DNA from: Solirubrobacteraceae bacterium
GTDB taxonomy: Bacteria; Actinomycetota; Thermoleophilia; Solirubrobacterales; Solirubrobacteraceae
Length of the DNA: 64,000 bases
Reading direction: 5' to 3'
NCBI GenBank assembly: GCA_016463765.1
Contig: JAEMQS010000004.1
Location: forward strand, 1 to 64,000
Positions 58,267 through 63,736 of this stretch are shown here, one piece after another. The notes beneath the pieces were generated by a model. That model worked only from the letters and a program-made list of their open reading frames with translations, did not search any database and was not told the DNA's origin. How positions within the stretch are numbered: the first letter of the stretch is position 1; the number at the start of each line of letters is the position of its first letter. The position numbers and the translations under genes were made by a program.

Positions 58267-58705
58267 GCGGGTTGGTGGCCGCGCTCGCCGGTCTCGCGCA
58301 GATGTCGAAGACTGTCGTCGCGCGGCGGCCGTTCAAGGCGCGCGCCGTGGTGGGCGGAGCGTCCCGCGCGGAACGCTGGCCGCTACGAGGCTCGGTGGAA
58401 GTCGCCGTCGCAGTGCCGCCAGGCGCCGCGGCCCTTCGTCTTCGCGTCCTGGCGGCTGCCTGGTAGGCGGCGGTGCGGGTGAACGGTTTGCCGTCGTAGA
58501 CGTAGACGTCCGCCCATCCGCTCCCGACCATCTTGCGGTTGATGTCGCCGTCGGTGGAGACGTAGGCGACCATACGCCCGTTATCTGCTGCCATCAAACC
58601 ACGGATCTGGCCTGGCCCCGGGCGCGTGGCGGATCTTGCGTTGCGAACGGCGTTCGCAACGGTCTCGGTGTGCGGTAAGAAGCATGCTCGTGTGAGTTGG
58701 AGCAA
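58244..58705 (-). pseudogene. Truncated thermonuclease (SNase-type) fragment
   Basis: Residues 43-90 of this frame (about 58436-58579) read GRMVAYVSTDGDINRKMV, GSGWADVYVYDGKPFTRTAAY, the C-terminal half of an SNase domain. The N-terminal half with the catalytic Asp/Arg is absent upstream and the C-terminus is unrelated Arg/Ala-rich sequence. So probably a decayed gene. Confidence 0.5.
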
Positions 58706-59046
58706 GCAACGGCTGCTCTCGTGCGCCGACGTCGGCGGCTTCAGGCGGCGCTCGGAAGAGCGTGTCGATCTCTGGTATCGGGTCGTGCCTGCAAGAGACG
58801 CGGATGGACCTCGCCATAGCGTCCCGTAGCAATCGTGGCTAGGGGGTAGGTACCGATAGCGTTCGGGCGGCGGCTCGCCCGGGATTCGAGCCCCCGAGCG
58901 GGTGCGGACGTGGTTCCGTAGACGTGGCTTCGGCCCTTCAGGGTATCCGTCGCAGCATGATGGAAGCTGCCCCTACTAGTGCACCCGGAAGCTCCCTGTC
59001 CCTCAACGCAACAGGACCGGCGACACCGGGAACACGCCCTGCCAAC
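58706..59046. other. 341-bp boundary stretch
   Basis: No gene. It should contain the right end of element B, but there is no copy of the tRNA-His repeat. A T-arm-like string GGGATTCGAGCCCCCG at about 58886 is too short to be a tRNA. Confidence 0.4.
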
Positions 59047-60357
59047 CTAGGCAGGGCCCCGGGCGCGATGCACCGCCGCTGGCGGGCGACGACCCCGTGC
59101 CGGCACAGCCGCCGGCTCGGGGCGCCAGAGCCACGCGGCCGCGACCACCGCCAGCATGGCGACGGTCCCGAGCAGTACGGAAACGGTGTCGATGCCCAGG
59201 AGCGCGCCGAGCACCCCGGCGATCGGATACGTCGCAAGCCAGCACGCATGCGACAGGGAGAACTGCGCAGCGAACAGCGCTGGGCGATCGGCACGATCCG
59301 CGGATCGCTGGATGAGCCGTCCTGCAGGGGTCTGGATGAGCGAGAGGCCGATGCCCATCGCGAGCCAGATCGCCAGTAGCGGCACGTAGCCGGGGACGAC
59401 GGACAGCACGCCGAGGCTCCCCGCGACCACGAAACCCCCGGCGAGCATCGCGCGACGGTCGCTGGTCCGCTCGAGGACACGCGGCATGGCCAGCGCCACG
59501 GCCATCGACCCGGCACCCGCGGCAGCCAGGGCCACGGCGACCTCGGACGGGCCGAGGTCGAACCGGTCCCGGACGAGGACCACGGTGTTGACGATGACCA
59601 TCGCACTGCCGGCGGCCGCGGCGAGGTTGAGCGCCAGCAGGCCGCGCAGGCGCGGGGTGCCGAGGTATGCGCGGATGCCCTCCGTCGCCCGGGCGACCAG
59701 CCGGGCGCGTGGCGCGGTGCGTCGGGGCGCATCCGGCACCGCGGTCGTCAGCACGAGCAGCGCGGACGCGCCGAAGGCCACGGCATTGAGCACGAACAGC
59801 TCGCTGAAGGCCACCACCAGCAGGAGGACGCCCGCCAGCACGGGGCTGAGTAGCTCCTGCAGGTCGTAGGCCAGGCGGGACAGGGACAGCGCCGCGGTGT
59901 AGCGCTCCTCGTCGGGCAGCACGTCGGGGATGGCCGCCTGGAAGGCCGGGGTGAAGCCGGCCGAGCAGGCGTTCAACGCGAACACCAGCACCAGGACCTG
60001 CCAGATCTCGGTCACAAAGGGCAGGAGGAGGACAACGCCGGCGCGCGCGATGTCGAGGCCGACGAGCAGGCGGCGCCGGGGCAGCCGGTCGGCGAACGCG
60101 GCCGCGATCGGCGCCAGCACGACGTAGGCGACCATCTTCAGCGCGAAGGCCGCACCCAGGACCGCGCCCGCGTTGCGTCCCGACAGCTCGTAGGCCAGGA
60201 GGCCGAGCGCGACGGTCGAGACGCCGGTGCCGACGAGCGCGACGACCTGCGCGGCGAACAGGCGGCGGTACGTCGCGTCTGCGAGCGGCTCCAGCAGCCG
60301 CGCCGGAGGGGTGTCCGGGCCGCCGTGGGCAGGTGCGGGGTGAGCGCCGTCAGCCAT
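59047..60357 (-). CDS. MFS exporter (EntS/MFS_3-like)
   Basis: 436 residues, 12 hydrophobic helices, with the loop motif ADRLPRRRLLVG (about 88-99) after helix 2 typical of MFS transporters and a central loop at about 205-220. The substrate cannot be read; the ArsR context suggests metal or metallophore export. It overlaps the small protein gene by 8 nt, in one operon with arsR. Confidence 0.9.
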   Translation of the reverse strand: MADGAHPAPAHGGPDTPPARLLEPLADATYRRLFAAQVVALVGTGVSTVALGLLAYELSGRNAGAVLGAAFALKMVAYVVLAPIAAAFADRLPRRRLLVGLDIARAGVVLLLPFVTEIWQVLVLVFALNACSAGFTPAFQAAIPDVLPDEERYTAALSLSRLAYDLQELLSPVLAGVLLLVVAFSELFVLNAVAFGASALLVLTTAVPDAPRRTAPRARLVARATEGIRAYLGTPRLRGLLALNLAAAAGSAMVIVNTVVLVRDRFDLGPSEVAVALAAAGAGSMAVALAMPRVLERTSDRRAMLAGGFVVAGSLGVLSVVPGYVPLLAIWLAMGIGLSLIQTPAGRLIQRSADRADRPALFAAQFSLSHACWLATYPIAGVLGALLGIDTVSVLLGTVAMLAVVAAAWLWRPEPAAVPARGRRPPAAVHRARGPA

Positions 60358-60730
60358 CCTTGCTGTTCGCCGGGGCGTCTTCCTTGAAGCGCGCGTAGCG
60401 CCGGCCGGCCGATCGTTCGTAGTAGATGCGCGTGGGGAGCGCGACTGACGAGTGCGACTGCATGTGCGCGATGTCGAAGTACTGCGCGTCCGCCGGGCGG
60501 ATCGTGAAGGTCAGGGCGCCGCGCTCGGCGCTCCCGAACGGCTCGAGCACGAGGCGGTCGTCCTCGACCACGGTGAGCGTCCCGTCGGCGTAGGCCATCG
60601 TCGAGAGGCCCGGAGGAGGGTCGGGCGCCTGGCCTGGGCCCAGAAACAGGAACAGGAGCACGCTGCAGCCCGCCGCGACGCCCAGCAGGGCGGCGTTGCG
60701 CCGCCACGTCGTCCCGCGCGGTCGGCTCAT
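60350..60730 (-). CDS. Membrane-anchored protein with HMxxH motif (paralog 1)
   Basis: 126 residues: N-terminal anchor (about 14-33) then an extracytoplasmic domain ending DIAHMQSHSSVALPTRIYY, ARFKEDAPANS. The anchor is followed by GTLTVVEDDRLVLEPF. The 19-residue stretch is identical in the protein at 61860. His-Met-x-x-His and the Met/His content suggest metal binding. ATG overlaps the ArsR stop (ATGA). Confidence 0.7.
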   Translation of the reverse strand: MSRPRGTTWRRNAALLGVAAGCSVLLFLFLGPGQAPDPPPGLSTMAYADGTLTVVEDDRLVLEPFGSAERGALTFTIRPADAQYFDIAHMQSHSSVALPTRIYYERSAGRRYARFKEDAPANSKDG

Positions 60731-61098
60731 GCGCTTGCCGCGGCTTCGGCGGCCACGGCCGACTCGGTGGCATCCTCGCGGTGCTCCTGGTGGTGGCGGA
60801 TCGCGGCGAGGAGCGCGGGGAGGTGGTGGCTGTACAGGCGGTAGTGGTGGTGGCGCCCGTCGCGCCGGACGGCGACGAAGCGCAGGTCGCGCAGCACCCG
60901 CAGCTGCTGGGAGGCGAGCGTCTGGCTGAGCTGTGTGGCCTCGGCGAGCTGTTCCACGGTCCGCTCCCCTTCCAGCAGCGCCCACAGGAGGCGAATGCGG
61001 CTCCCTGTTCCGAACGCGCGCATCGCGTTGGCGAGTGCGTCGGCGTCGTCGTGCGCGAGCGGCGCGGTCGCAGGGCGATGCTCGAGCGGATGGGCCAT
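60727..61098 (-). CDS. ArsR/SmtB-family metal-responsive repressor
   Basis: 123 residues: winged helix with TVEQLAEATQLSQTLASQQLRVLRD (seen as LSQTLASQQLRVLRD) and a wing RRDGRHHHYRLY. The last helix SHHLPALLAAIRHHQEH carries the His pattern of an alpha-5 Zn/Ni/Co site; the alpha-3 Cys site of ArsR is absent. Starts leaderless at 61098. Overlaps the next gene. Confidence 0.88.
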   Translation of the reverse strand: MAHPLEHRPATAPLAHDDADALANAMRAFGTGSRIRLLWALLEGERTVEQLAEATQLSQTLASQQLRVLRDLRFVAVRRDGRHHHYRLYSHHLPALLAAIRHHQEHREDATESAVAAEAAASA

Positions 61099-61105
61099 GT
61101 GCACA

Positions 61106-61143
61106 ACAATAATGCATATGCACAGATGTGCATGCGTTATCCT
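61106..61143. promoter_or_regulatory. Divergent promoters and ArsR operator
   Basis: Minus -10 TATTGT (61111 to 61106) is 7 nt before ATG 61098. Plus -10 TATCCT (61138-61143) is 8 nt before GTG 61152. Between them ATGCACA-GA-TGTGCAT (61118-61133) is a near-perfect palindrome of the length ArsR dimers bind. Binding would block both promoters. Confidence 0.65.
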
Positions 61144-61151
61144 CCCGTTCC

Positions 61152-61742
61152 GTGAGCCGCTGGGCCTACATGCTTCGTGCTGCCGCATTCCTCACGGGAG
61201 GCGCGTACGCCGTCCACCAGTTGCGCTACTTGGTGAGCTTCGGCTCGCACGCTGACGAGGCGCTGCACCATCACGGCCACGGCTACCTCTCGGCAGTTGC
61301 CCCGCTCGTGACACTCGCGGTGGCCGCCGCCATCGGTTGGGTGCTCTGGTCGGTGATGCGCCCGGCCCGGTCGGACGTGCCGCACGTGCGGTTCCGCCGG
61401 GCGTGGGCGCTGTCCAGCGTGTGCCTGGTCTCGGTCTACACCGTCCAGGAACTTCTGGAGGGACAGTTCTCCCACGGCCACCCCGAGGGGCTGGCGGGCG
61501 TCTTCGGCCAGGGCGGCTGGACGGCTGTGCCGATGGCAATCCTCGTCGGCGTCGTAGTCGCGGCCGTCCTACGGGTCTCCCATGCGGTCGAACGCGCTGC
61601 CCCGCCGGTCCTCCTGGCCGCGCCCCGCGTGGACGCGTGGGTGCCCGGGCTTGTCGTGGTGCCCGCCGGTCCGCTGCCGCGGCCAGCGCTCTCGCCTCTG
61701 GCGCTTCGCCGCGCCGGGCGCGCACCACCCCGCGATCGCTGA
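61152..61742 (+). CDS. His-rich polytopic membrane protein
   Basis: 196 residues with about four helices. An extracytoplasmic loop has HADEALHHHGHGYLS (His clusters) and another FSHGHPEG. The GTG at 61152 fits the -10 box; the earlier GTG at 61128 lies inside the operator. A metal-binding role is inferred from the His clusters. Confidence 0.7.
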   Translation: MSRWAYMLRAAAFLTGGAYAVHQLRYLVSFGSHADEALHHHGHGYLSAVAPLVTLAVAAAIGWVLWSVMRPARSDVPHVRFRRAWALSSVCLVSVYTVQELLEGQFSHGHPEGLAGVFGQGGWTAVPMAILVGVVVAAVLRVSHAVERAAPPVLLAAPRVDAWVPGLVVVPAGPLPRPALSPLALRRAGRAPPRDR

Positions 61743-61859
61743 CTCCAGAGCCGCCCGCCGCCACGGCTGGGCCCTGTCAGCGACGCGCAGCCCCGTGCTG
61801 CGGGTCCGCGCCCCGGCGTCCTGCCGGCGGCGTCACGATCCCTATCCAGGAGCACGCAT

Positions 61860-62318
61860 ATGACCCAGTCCCCGTACACCGAGCCGCCCCGCCGGCCGCG
61901 TAACTCCAAGAAGTCGAACCGTCCGCGCATCATCGCGGCGTCGGTCATCGGCCTCGTCGCCGTCGTCGGGCTCTTCATCCTGTTCAGCGGCAGCGCGGAG
62001 GAGACCGCCGCGCCGCCGGCCGCGATCACGAACGCGACCGCCGACGGTGACGGCACCAACGAGGTGACCTACGTCGACGGCACACTGACGGTCGTGGAGA
62101 ACACCCGCCTGGTGCTCCAGCCGTTCGATAGCAACGAGGCAGAGATGGAGTTCGTCATCCAGGAGGAGGACGCGCCGAACTTCGACATCGCGCACATGCA
62201 GTCGCACTCCTCGGTGGCGCTGCCCACGCGCATCTACTACCAGCGCGAGGGCGACACCCTGCTCGCCAAGTACAAGGAGGACGCGCCCGTCAACAGCCAG
62301 CAGCAGGAGGGTTCGTGA
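61860..62318 (+). CDS. Membrane-anchored protein with HMxxH motif (paralog 2)
   Basis: 152 residues: basic N-terminus, anchor (about 26-44), then GTLTVVENTRLVLQPF and the stretch DIAHMQSHSSVALPTRIYY identical to paralog 1, then KEDAPVNS. So the two paralogs flank the regulator on opposite strands. ATG has AGGAG. Stop overlaps the next start (GTGA). Confidence 0.7.
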   Translation: MTQSPYTEPPRRPRNSKKSNRPRIIAASVIGLVAVVGLFILFSGSAEETAAPPAAITNATADGDGTNEVTYVDGTLTVVENTRLVLQPFDSNEAEMEFVIQEEDAPNFDIAHMQSHSSVALPTRIYYQREGDTLLAKYKEDAPVNSQQQEGS

Positions 62319-63736
62319 CCCGCGCGCTGCGCGCCCTGGGCGCACTCGCGATAGCCGGCGCGGCCTGGCCCGCGGCGGCGGTCGCGCACGGCGTGCAGGG
62401 CCGGGCCGAGACGCCGATTCCGATCTCGGCGTTCTTCTGGGTCGGCGCCGTCGTGCTGGTGATCTCGTTCATCGGGCTGGGCATCGGCTGGTCGCAGTCG
62501 AAGTTCACGACGATCCCGTGGCGGCCGGTCGCGCCTGGGTTCGAACGGGTCGTGTCCTCGCGCGTCGTCGTGTGCGCCGGGCGGGCGCTGGTCCTGGGGG
62601 CCTTCGCCCTGCTGTTCGCCGCCGCGGCGTTCGGCTCGACCCGGTTGAACTCGAATATCGCTCCGGTGGCGATCTTTGTGTGCTGGTGGGTGGGCCTCGT
62701 CCCGTTCAAGGTGCTGTTCGGCAACGTGTGGGACCAGATCAACCCGTGGCTGACCATGGCCCGCCTGCTGCGGCTGCACGACGAGACCAAGCGCGAGCTG
62801 CCCGGCTGGGTCGGGTGGTGGCCGGCGGCGCTGCTGCTCATCGGCTGGGCGTGGATCGAGCTGGTCTATCCCACGACGGCCCGTCCGCGGCTGATCGCGG
62901 GCTGGATGGCGGCCTACACGCTGCTGACGCTCGCGGGGATGTGGCGCTACGGCGTCCGGCGGTGGCTCGACAACGGCGAGATGTTCAGCGTCTACACGTC
63001 GGTCCTCGCCACCATGTCGCCGTGGGAGCACCGTGAGATCGACGGCCGGCGGCGGCTCGGCCTGCGCCCGCCGATCGTCGGCGTGACGTCGCTCGACGAG
63101 CGGCCGGCGCAGGTGGCGTTCATCGGGGCGCTCGTCGCCACGGTGAGCTTCGACGGCCTGAGCGGCAGCGACTTCTGGGCCCGCCGGGACGTCACCGCCG
63201 CCGAGCGGCTGATCGACCTCGGGATCGAGGGGTTCACTGCGGGCATCATCGTCGCGACGATCGGGCTGCTCGTCACCCTGACGGTGGTCATCGGCGCCTA
63301 CCAGGCGGCGGCGTGGCTGTCTGCGCACATCGGGCGGTTCCCCGACGTGGGGGCCGCCGGCTCGGCGTTCATCCACACCCTGGTGCCGATCGCGCTGGCG
63401 TACTTCGTCGCGCACTACTTCACGCTGTTCGTGTTCTCCGGGCAGGACATCGTGCGGTTGATCTCAGACCCGTTCGGGAGCGGGGCGGACATCTTCGGCA
63501 CCGCCGAGTTCCGCATCGACTTCCAGGCGGTATCGCCGAACGCGATCTGGGCCGTCCAGGTCGGAGCGATCGTGATCGGTCACGTGATCGGGCTCGCCCT
63601 CGCGCACGACCGTGCGGTTGAACTCAGTCCGACGCACCGGCTCGCGGTCGCCTCGCAGGGACCGATGCTGGTGCTCATGGTCGCGCTCACCGTGCTCGGT
63701 CTGTGGTCGCTGTCGGAGGGGATGGCGCGCATCTGA
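62315..63736 (+). CDS. Large polytopic membrane protein, AHG-start family
   Basis: 473 residues with a signal-like start ending AVAHGVQGR, then about 12 helices. The AHGxxGR start and PIPISAFFW are like an actinobacterial family that is sometimes labelled fenitrothion hydrolase, from memory; no enzyme activity is visible. Contains FxVAHYFTLFVFSGQD with a conserved-looking His. GTG start overlaps the paralog 2 stop as GTGA. Confidence 0.7.
   Translation: MTRALRALGALAIAGAAWPAAAVAHGVQGRAETPIPISAFFWVGAVVLVISFIGLGIGWSQSKFTTIPWRPVAPGFERVVSSRVVVCAGRALVLGAFALLFAAAAFGSTRLNSNIAPVAIFVCWWVGLVPFKVLFGNVWDQINPWLTMARLLRLHDETKRELPGWVGWWPAALLLIGWAWIELVYPTTARPRLIAGWMAAYTLLTLAGMWRYGVRRWLDNGEMFSVYTSVLATMSPWEHREIDGRRRLGLRPPIVGVTSLDERPAQVAFIGALVATVSFDGLSGSDFWARRDVTAAERLIDLGIEGFTAGIIVATIGLLVTLTVVIGAYQAAAWLSAHIGRFPDVGAAGSAFIHTLVPIALAYFVAHYFTLFVFSGQDIVRLISDPFGSGADIFGTAEFRIDFQAVSPNAIWAVQVGAIVIGHVIGLALAHDRAVELSPTHRLAVASQGPMLVLMVALTVLGLWSLSEGMARI

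Follow-up and report, generated by a model that had tools for sequence, protein, structure and literature searches.

What might an ArsR/SmtB-family repressor control in a locus where, apart from the repressor itself, only a major facilitator superfamily (MFS) exporter is named by Pfam and NCBIfam? The question is raised by six genes at 59047-63736 of a 64,000-nucleotide stretch, the whole of which we call the window, from the genome of a Solirubrobacteraceae bacterium (GCA_016463765.1, contig JAEMQS010000004.1). On the minus strand lie the genes of the MFS exporter, a small anchored HxxxH protein (A) and ArsR, and on the plus strand those of a His-containing membrane protein, a second small anchored HxxxH protein (B) and a polytopic protein that we label AHG. 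The initial annotation, made from sequence alone, had described an unnamed metal-handling system; gene calls over 59047-63736 recovered all the parts that it named, and metal handling is still the best and most likely reading, which we infer from neighbours, fold and sensor type only. Across related genomes the AHG family usually pairs with a cupredoxin-like protein, and one clade, that of the window locus, uses an HxxxH protein instead. We tentatively regard the locus as an inducible copy of an ArsR-linked extracytoplasmic metal-handling membrane module, a specific proposal that we hold at slightly less than even strength.

The window AHG (473 residues; 62315-63736, plus strand) belongs to what is, by sequence searches, a large family that has no match in Pfam or NCBIfam and whose profile found nothing credible among PDB sequences. 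The family is present in 87 of 101 relatives, in 170 of the 399 genomes of the class (E 1e-20) and in 79 of 396 genomes of the phylum. Its conserved residues are His, Glu, Asp and Met: among the 93 rows compared, where at least two loci (in G087 and G277) were entered twice, E182, D280 and H367 are kept in every row, H423, H431 and M455 in 92, and H25, which follows a signal-peptide-like stretch, in 89. The immediate upstream gene on the same strand encodes a cupredoxin-like anchored protein in 43 of the 92 rows other than the window, the remainder being another gene (24), a gene on the opposite strand (12), a short secreted family (5), an HxxxH protein (3), a contig edge (3) or others (2). 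A later set, from which L200-L203, L215, L220 and L234 (HxxxH loci, fragments, a clade-host relative and contig ends) were omitted, has the cupredoxin-like gene upstream in 20 of 28 rows. The pairing extends to plasmids, 63 records of which match AHG. Among the seven looked at, five (from Pseudonocardia, M. dioxanotrophicus, Variovorax, Rhodococcus and M. gallinarum) have a cupredoxin-like gene upstream, judged by eye from an HxHG or HxHx motif; the upstream gene on the Haladaptatus plasmid is not cupredoxin-like, and the neighbour on the Sulfitobacter plasmid is a divergent PCu(A)C gene. All seven plasmid relatives, an archaeon among them, keep H367, H423 and H431. No AHG was found in viral contigs.

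The genes around AHG are often copper-related. They include CopC (L080), CtaG (L082), SCO1, PCu(A)C, CopC together with an oxidase subunit, and copper monooxygenase subunits; on the M. dioxanotrophicus plasmid (L154, 5486-11554) the cupredoxin-like and AHG genes adjoin subunits C, A and B of that enzyme. It is mainly because of these neighbours that copper is considered as cargo. Several further observations concern AHG itself. Further downstream, at a distance of about 28 kb, the same contig carries a second copy paired with a cupredoxin-like protein (L149, G000:C186:87376-96749), and a third, on contig C88 (L127), is near SCO1; a very short membrane peptide gene (label HW; for example L127 5416-5589) follows AHG in 31 of 92 rows. 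The name 'fenitrothion hydrolase', considered for AHG relatives, was dropped, as the 30 plasmid records listed read hypothetical protein or none, or are unannotated. Judged from titles and the starts of abstracts, no description of the AHG or HxxxH families was recognised in the open-licence literature.

The exchange of partners follows the AHG phylogeny. In a tree built without an outgroup, the 8 rows (7 loci) whose AHG has an HxxxH neighbour are set apart from all others by a branch that has full SH-aLRT support, a grouping that none of 500 shuffles equalled, and an HxxxH partner is found in none of the other 85 rows; these neighbour counts rest on the motif or the A4 model. Five of these seven loci had entered through the small-protein search, so the search was repeated with AHG alone. 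Within the class, the six top-ranking places were the window, the HxxxH loci of G250:C156 and G121, a G390 fragment, the G001 remnant described below and the HxxxH locus of G277. Two more, G285 and G250:C182, ranked lower, among cupredoxin-partnered AHGs, and an AHG in G366:C242 (37% identical and of the same family as three HxxxH loci) has no adjoining HxxxH gene. With G004:C33 and G390:C52, the HxxxH-AHG loci number eight, and two HxxxH genes lie near AHG in all of them except G004:C33 and G390; our own gene calls come from a simple codon-score script, and three short contigs (L081, L085, L087) could hide more. The locus in G390, from another family of the order, has a cupredoxin-like gene and an MFS homologue divergent from ArsR, the membrane protein, an HxxxH protein and AHG, in which the contig ends (L081). 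It differs from the window in that the cupredoxin-like gene replaces A on the MFS operon and ArsR stands on the AHG operon. Because G390 repeats the gene set of the window, this locus type is conserved, not unique. That an alpha-5-type ArsR, the small proteins and AHG recur together is supported, and a constant association of the small protein with AHG is not: AHG is far commoner and mostly stands beside a cupredoxin-like protein, and the small family also occurs away from it, as in G004:C80 and G028:C422, which have the small protein without AHG. In a separate setting (L078 and L079), single HxxxH proteins lie downstream of secreted proteins of about 850 residues, with no AHG near.

The small proteins themselves offer the next clue to function. 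Protein A (126 residues; 60350-60730, minus) and protein B (152 residues; 61860-62318, plus) are 51% identical (E 8e-27) and share an identical run, FDIAHMQSHSSVALPTRIYY, encoded at 60419-60478 (minus) in A and 62181-62240 (plus) in B. The duplication with one copy per operon stands as annotated, and the run is 20 residues long, not 19. Recent gene conversion between the two was considered and need not be assumed, because 16 of the 20 codons are the same, where 0.63 per codon would be expected. Protein A matched nothing in Pfam or NCBIfam at E up to 1, the small-protein profile found nothing credible among PDB sequences, and plasmid sequences gave no match. The motif had been given as HMxxH; relatives with HLxxH and other forms place its core at HxxxH. 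An alignment of 16 diverse members leaves M1, G74, H112 and H116 as the only invariant residues, the His invariance being somewhat favoured by a search that partly used profiles weighting these residues. Among 48 distinct sequences matched by the HxxxH profile, several of them copies of the window proteins cut at locus ends, 38 carry the motif as written, one of which (L111) looks unrelated; the other ten are four HxxxH forms missed by the pattern (L167, L173, L174, L178), a truncated copy of B and five apparently unrelated transmembrane matches. Run with five sequences, AlphaFold2 predicts the N-terminal part poorly and gives a confident domain beyond it, at residues 70-141 (block means of 87 to 94). 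This domain has the order strand-strand-strand-helix-strand-strand of an OB fold, and the His pair is placed on its helix, which separates strands 3 and 4. The best PDB matches by Foldseek are SilF and CusF (E 4e-4), and VIA-align gives Z 9.5 for SilF with a root-mean-square deviation of 2.4 over 73 residues. The prediction for the small domain is thus an OB fold, with these Cu/Ag chaperones as its nearest structural matches. A hidden Markov model of the cupredoxin-like proteins weakly matches B (E 7e-4) and the second small protein of L080 (E 5e-6).

The repressor bears on the signal. ArsR (123 residues; 60727-61098, minus) matches HTH_5 with 44 bits (cut-off 22; E 2e-11) and HTH_metalloreg with 67 (cut-off 55), and its best PDB matches are SmtB and NmtR; the first in-frame ATG is at 61188 and the start used is the ATG at 61098. 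It is the first gene of the minus operon, which corrects the initial annotation, where it stood between divergent operons. Its alpha-5 residues, S-H-H-x10-H-QE-H, fill three of the four ligand positions in an ungapped comparison with SmtB, and the complete D-x-H-x10-H-x2-H is present in the ArsRs of L080, L081 and L082. If the start is right, a Cys-type site is excluded by the sequence, since there is no Cys from ATG 61098. The alpha-5 motif of Zn and Ni sensors is given as DXHXAXXXXXAXXHXXE(H), with a preference of such sites for Zn or Ni, in one account (PMC9241078). With the start at 61098 the divergent intergenic region spans 61099-61169; a sigma-70 promoter search found none. Divergent gaps beside ArsR in two families contain 17 identical bases, ACCTGCACATATGAACG (L080 11491, L082 10645), a possible operator; what the window has in common with these gaps is limited to short strings, for example TGCACA, ATGTGCA and CGTGAGCC.

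The remaining genes complete two operon-like units, whose coding ends overlap at MFS/A, A/ArsR (the start of A with the ArsR stop) and B/AHG. The MFS exporter (436 residues; 59047-60357, minus) scores 118 bits against MFS_1 (cut-off 33; E 4e-34), which places it in the superfamily. The His-containing membrane protein (190 residues; 61170-61742, plus; working label DOX) belongs to a family of 17 distinct sequences that also precedes cupredoxin-AHG pairs elsewhere; it has no Pfam match and is not DoxX. The two operons had been thought to have more in common: the exporter is found only on the minus strand, the membrane protein and AHG only on the plus strand, and the small protein is the sole duplicated gene. 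The term island is doubtful as well. The close relative G001 (L008, G001:C1 ~4143065-4146655) lacks window positions 58367-62795, a deletion of about 4.4 kb between flanks that are ~98% (left) and 94% (right) identical; only a broken piece of its AHG gene is left, there is a 9-base overlap between the two blocks that match window 58366-62796 across the junction, and a small-protein search of this genome gave no match. Because the AHG remnant is retained with the rest deleted, the locus genes look old and lost in G001 rather than newly gained.

Taken together, these features can be arranged in a provisional mechanism. ArsR would repress both divergent operons and release them when a small divalent ion of the Zn, Ni or Co class fills the alpha-5 site. 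A and B, each with one N-terminal helix as anchor, would carry metal outside the membrane through H112 and H116 on the helix of the OB domain (approximately residues 70-141 of B), and would hand it to AHG or receive it from AHG. AHG may hold the metal in the membrane through H367, H423 and H431, perhaps also through the N-terminal H25, and the MFS protein would export the metal or a metal complex. As to cargo, copper stands at about an even chance, zinc is possible at a distinctly lower level, and any other metal is improbable.

Several observations weigh against the proposed ArsR-linked module. The type of sensor points to Zn, Ni or Co and the context of the family to Cu; beyond AHG in G121 (L082) there follow ZnuA, two CobW and a Fur-family gene. 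ArsR is present at only four of the eight HxxxH-AHG loci (the window, G390, G121 and G250:C156), the window ArsR has Ser in place of the first Asp ligand, and the best short palindrome in its gap, ATGCACAGATGTGCAT, is not above chance as an operator (29 of 200 shuffles were as good). OB folds are common; the next, unrelated ones reach Z 8.4, so the lead of SilF and CusF is small, and the fold lists include others near Z 8, toxin subunits among them, which we take as fold background. The AHG model, from a two-row alignment, has a mean predicted local distance difference test score of 38 and is unusable. Finally, outside the class 13 genomes have small-protein matches, and in the eight of these that also contain AHG it lies elsewhere in the genome.

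The alternative that survives best, unlikely though we consider it, takes cargo and signal to be the same, so that the locus would confer tolerance to zinc (or nickel/cobalt), a copper-type AHG branch having been turned to this use by the swap of cupredoxin for HxxxH protein and the addition of an alpha-5 ArsR. The likeness of ArsR to SmtB and NmtR, the complete motif in three relatives, the ZnuA, two CobW and Fur-family genes near the G121 locus and the clean clade formed by the swap all fit this alternative. Cobalt is also an ion of alpha-5 sites. Against this alternative, such sensors are able to bind more than one ion; moreover, CopC precedes the HxxxH-AHG pair in G250:C156 (L080), CtaG directly follows it in G121, and related HxxxH lipoproteins come after ctaG in oxidase operons.

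These oxidase operons bear equally on an improbable second alternative, that the pair does not answer stress but helps to assemble a copper enzyme of the membrane, of the cytochrome oxidase type, with ArsR raising it only under competing metals. Fifteen loci outside the class were read. An HxxxH lipoprotein follows ctaG and oxidase subunit genes in three (L172, L173, L174; Pfam run for L172) and lies near ctaA in four (L162, L164, L165, L178; the first and third identified with Pfam, L164 and L178 by eye), and in the other eight no oxidase gene was recognised within 1.5 kb flanks. Genes for SCO1, CtaG, CtaA and oxidase subunits in the surroundings of AHG or of HxxxH relatives would suit such a role; against it, the stretch read near the window locus, most of whose open reading frames were not run against Pfam, showed no recognisable oxidase gene, and an MFS exporter with an ArsR is generally unusual in such operons. 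Least probable of all is that the HxxxH and AHG histidines are structural or catalytic without metal and that the MFS protein, whose matches include drug exporters though below cut-off, exports an organic compound, given that the histidines are conserved where almost nothing else is and that copper-gene neighbours recur.

The ArsR-linked metal-handling module that we prefer could be part of something larger. Little is known of the way in which copper destined for actinobacterial copper enzymes passes through the membrane or is retained there. AHG and a small anchored metal-binding-like partner might constitute an undescribed delivery or translocation module across Actinomycetota and Pseudomonadota, from which one Thermoleophilia-like clade, with an HxxxH OB-fold protein replacing the cupredoxin and, in some of its members, an adjoining divalent-metal ArsR, turned a copper module to another metal; as a whole this extension is speculative and rather doubtful. 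The results point to a widespread unannotated membrane family and its usual cupredoxin-like partner, and the natural partner swap offers a means of testing the role of each part.

Comparison with known systems helps to place the parts. H36 is a further metal ligand of CusF, besides those considered next. M47 and M49 serve as ligands with W44 capping, according to one source (PMC6235853). The small proteins resemble CusF and SilF (PF11604) in having a small extracytoplasmic OB-fold domain, with these as top fold matches of the predicted model. They differ in being membrane-anchored and in that the conserved residues are HxxxH, on the helix that follows strand 3; as to the site of two Met and a Trp, the 16-member alignment has no conserved Trp or further Met. 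PF11604 matched none of these members (E up to 0.1) and nothing in the genome of the window. The window ArsR shares its family and three of the four alpha-5 ligand positions with SmtB and NmtR, from which it differs in the Ser for the first Asp and in target families unnamed in Pfam and NCBIfam. AHG is like Caa3_CtaG and CopD in being polytopic with conserved His, and CtaG adjoins some AHG genes; descent as a CtaG relative was rejected (hhalign E 0.15, probability 0.4), and no sequence relation to CopD was established, which matched one of 22 members (E 0.008) and none of the others. The cupredoxin-like neighbours, most of whose 48 sequences keep HxHGY and a Glu, fall short of the cut-off for Cupredoxin_1 (E 0.003) and are unlike the HxxxH proteins in sequence, but the two share a single N-terminal anchor or lipoprotein signal and the same place beside AHG.

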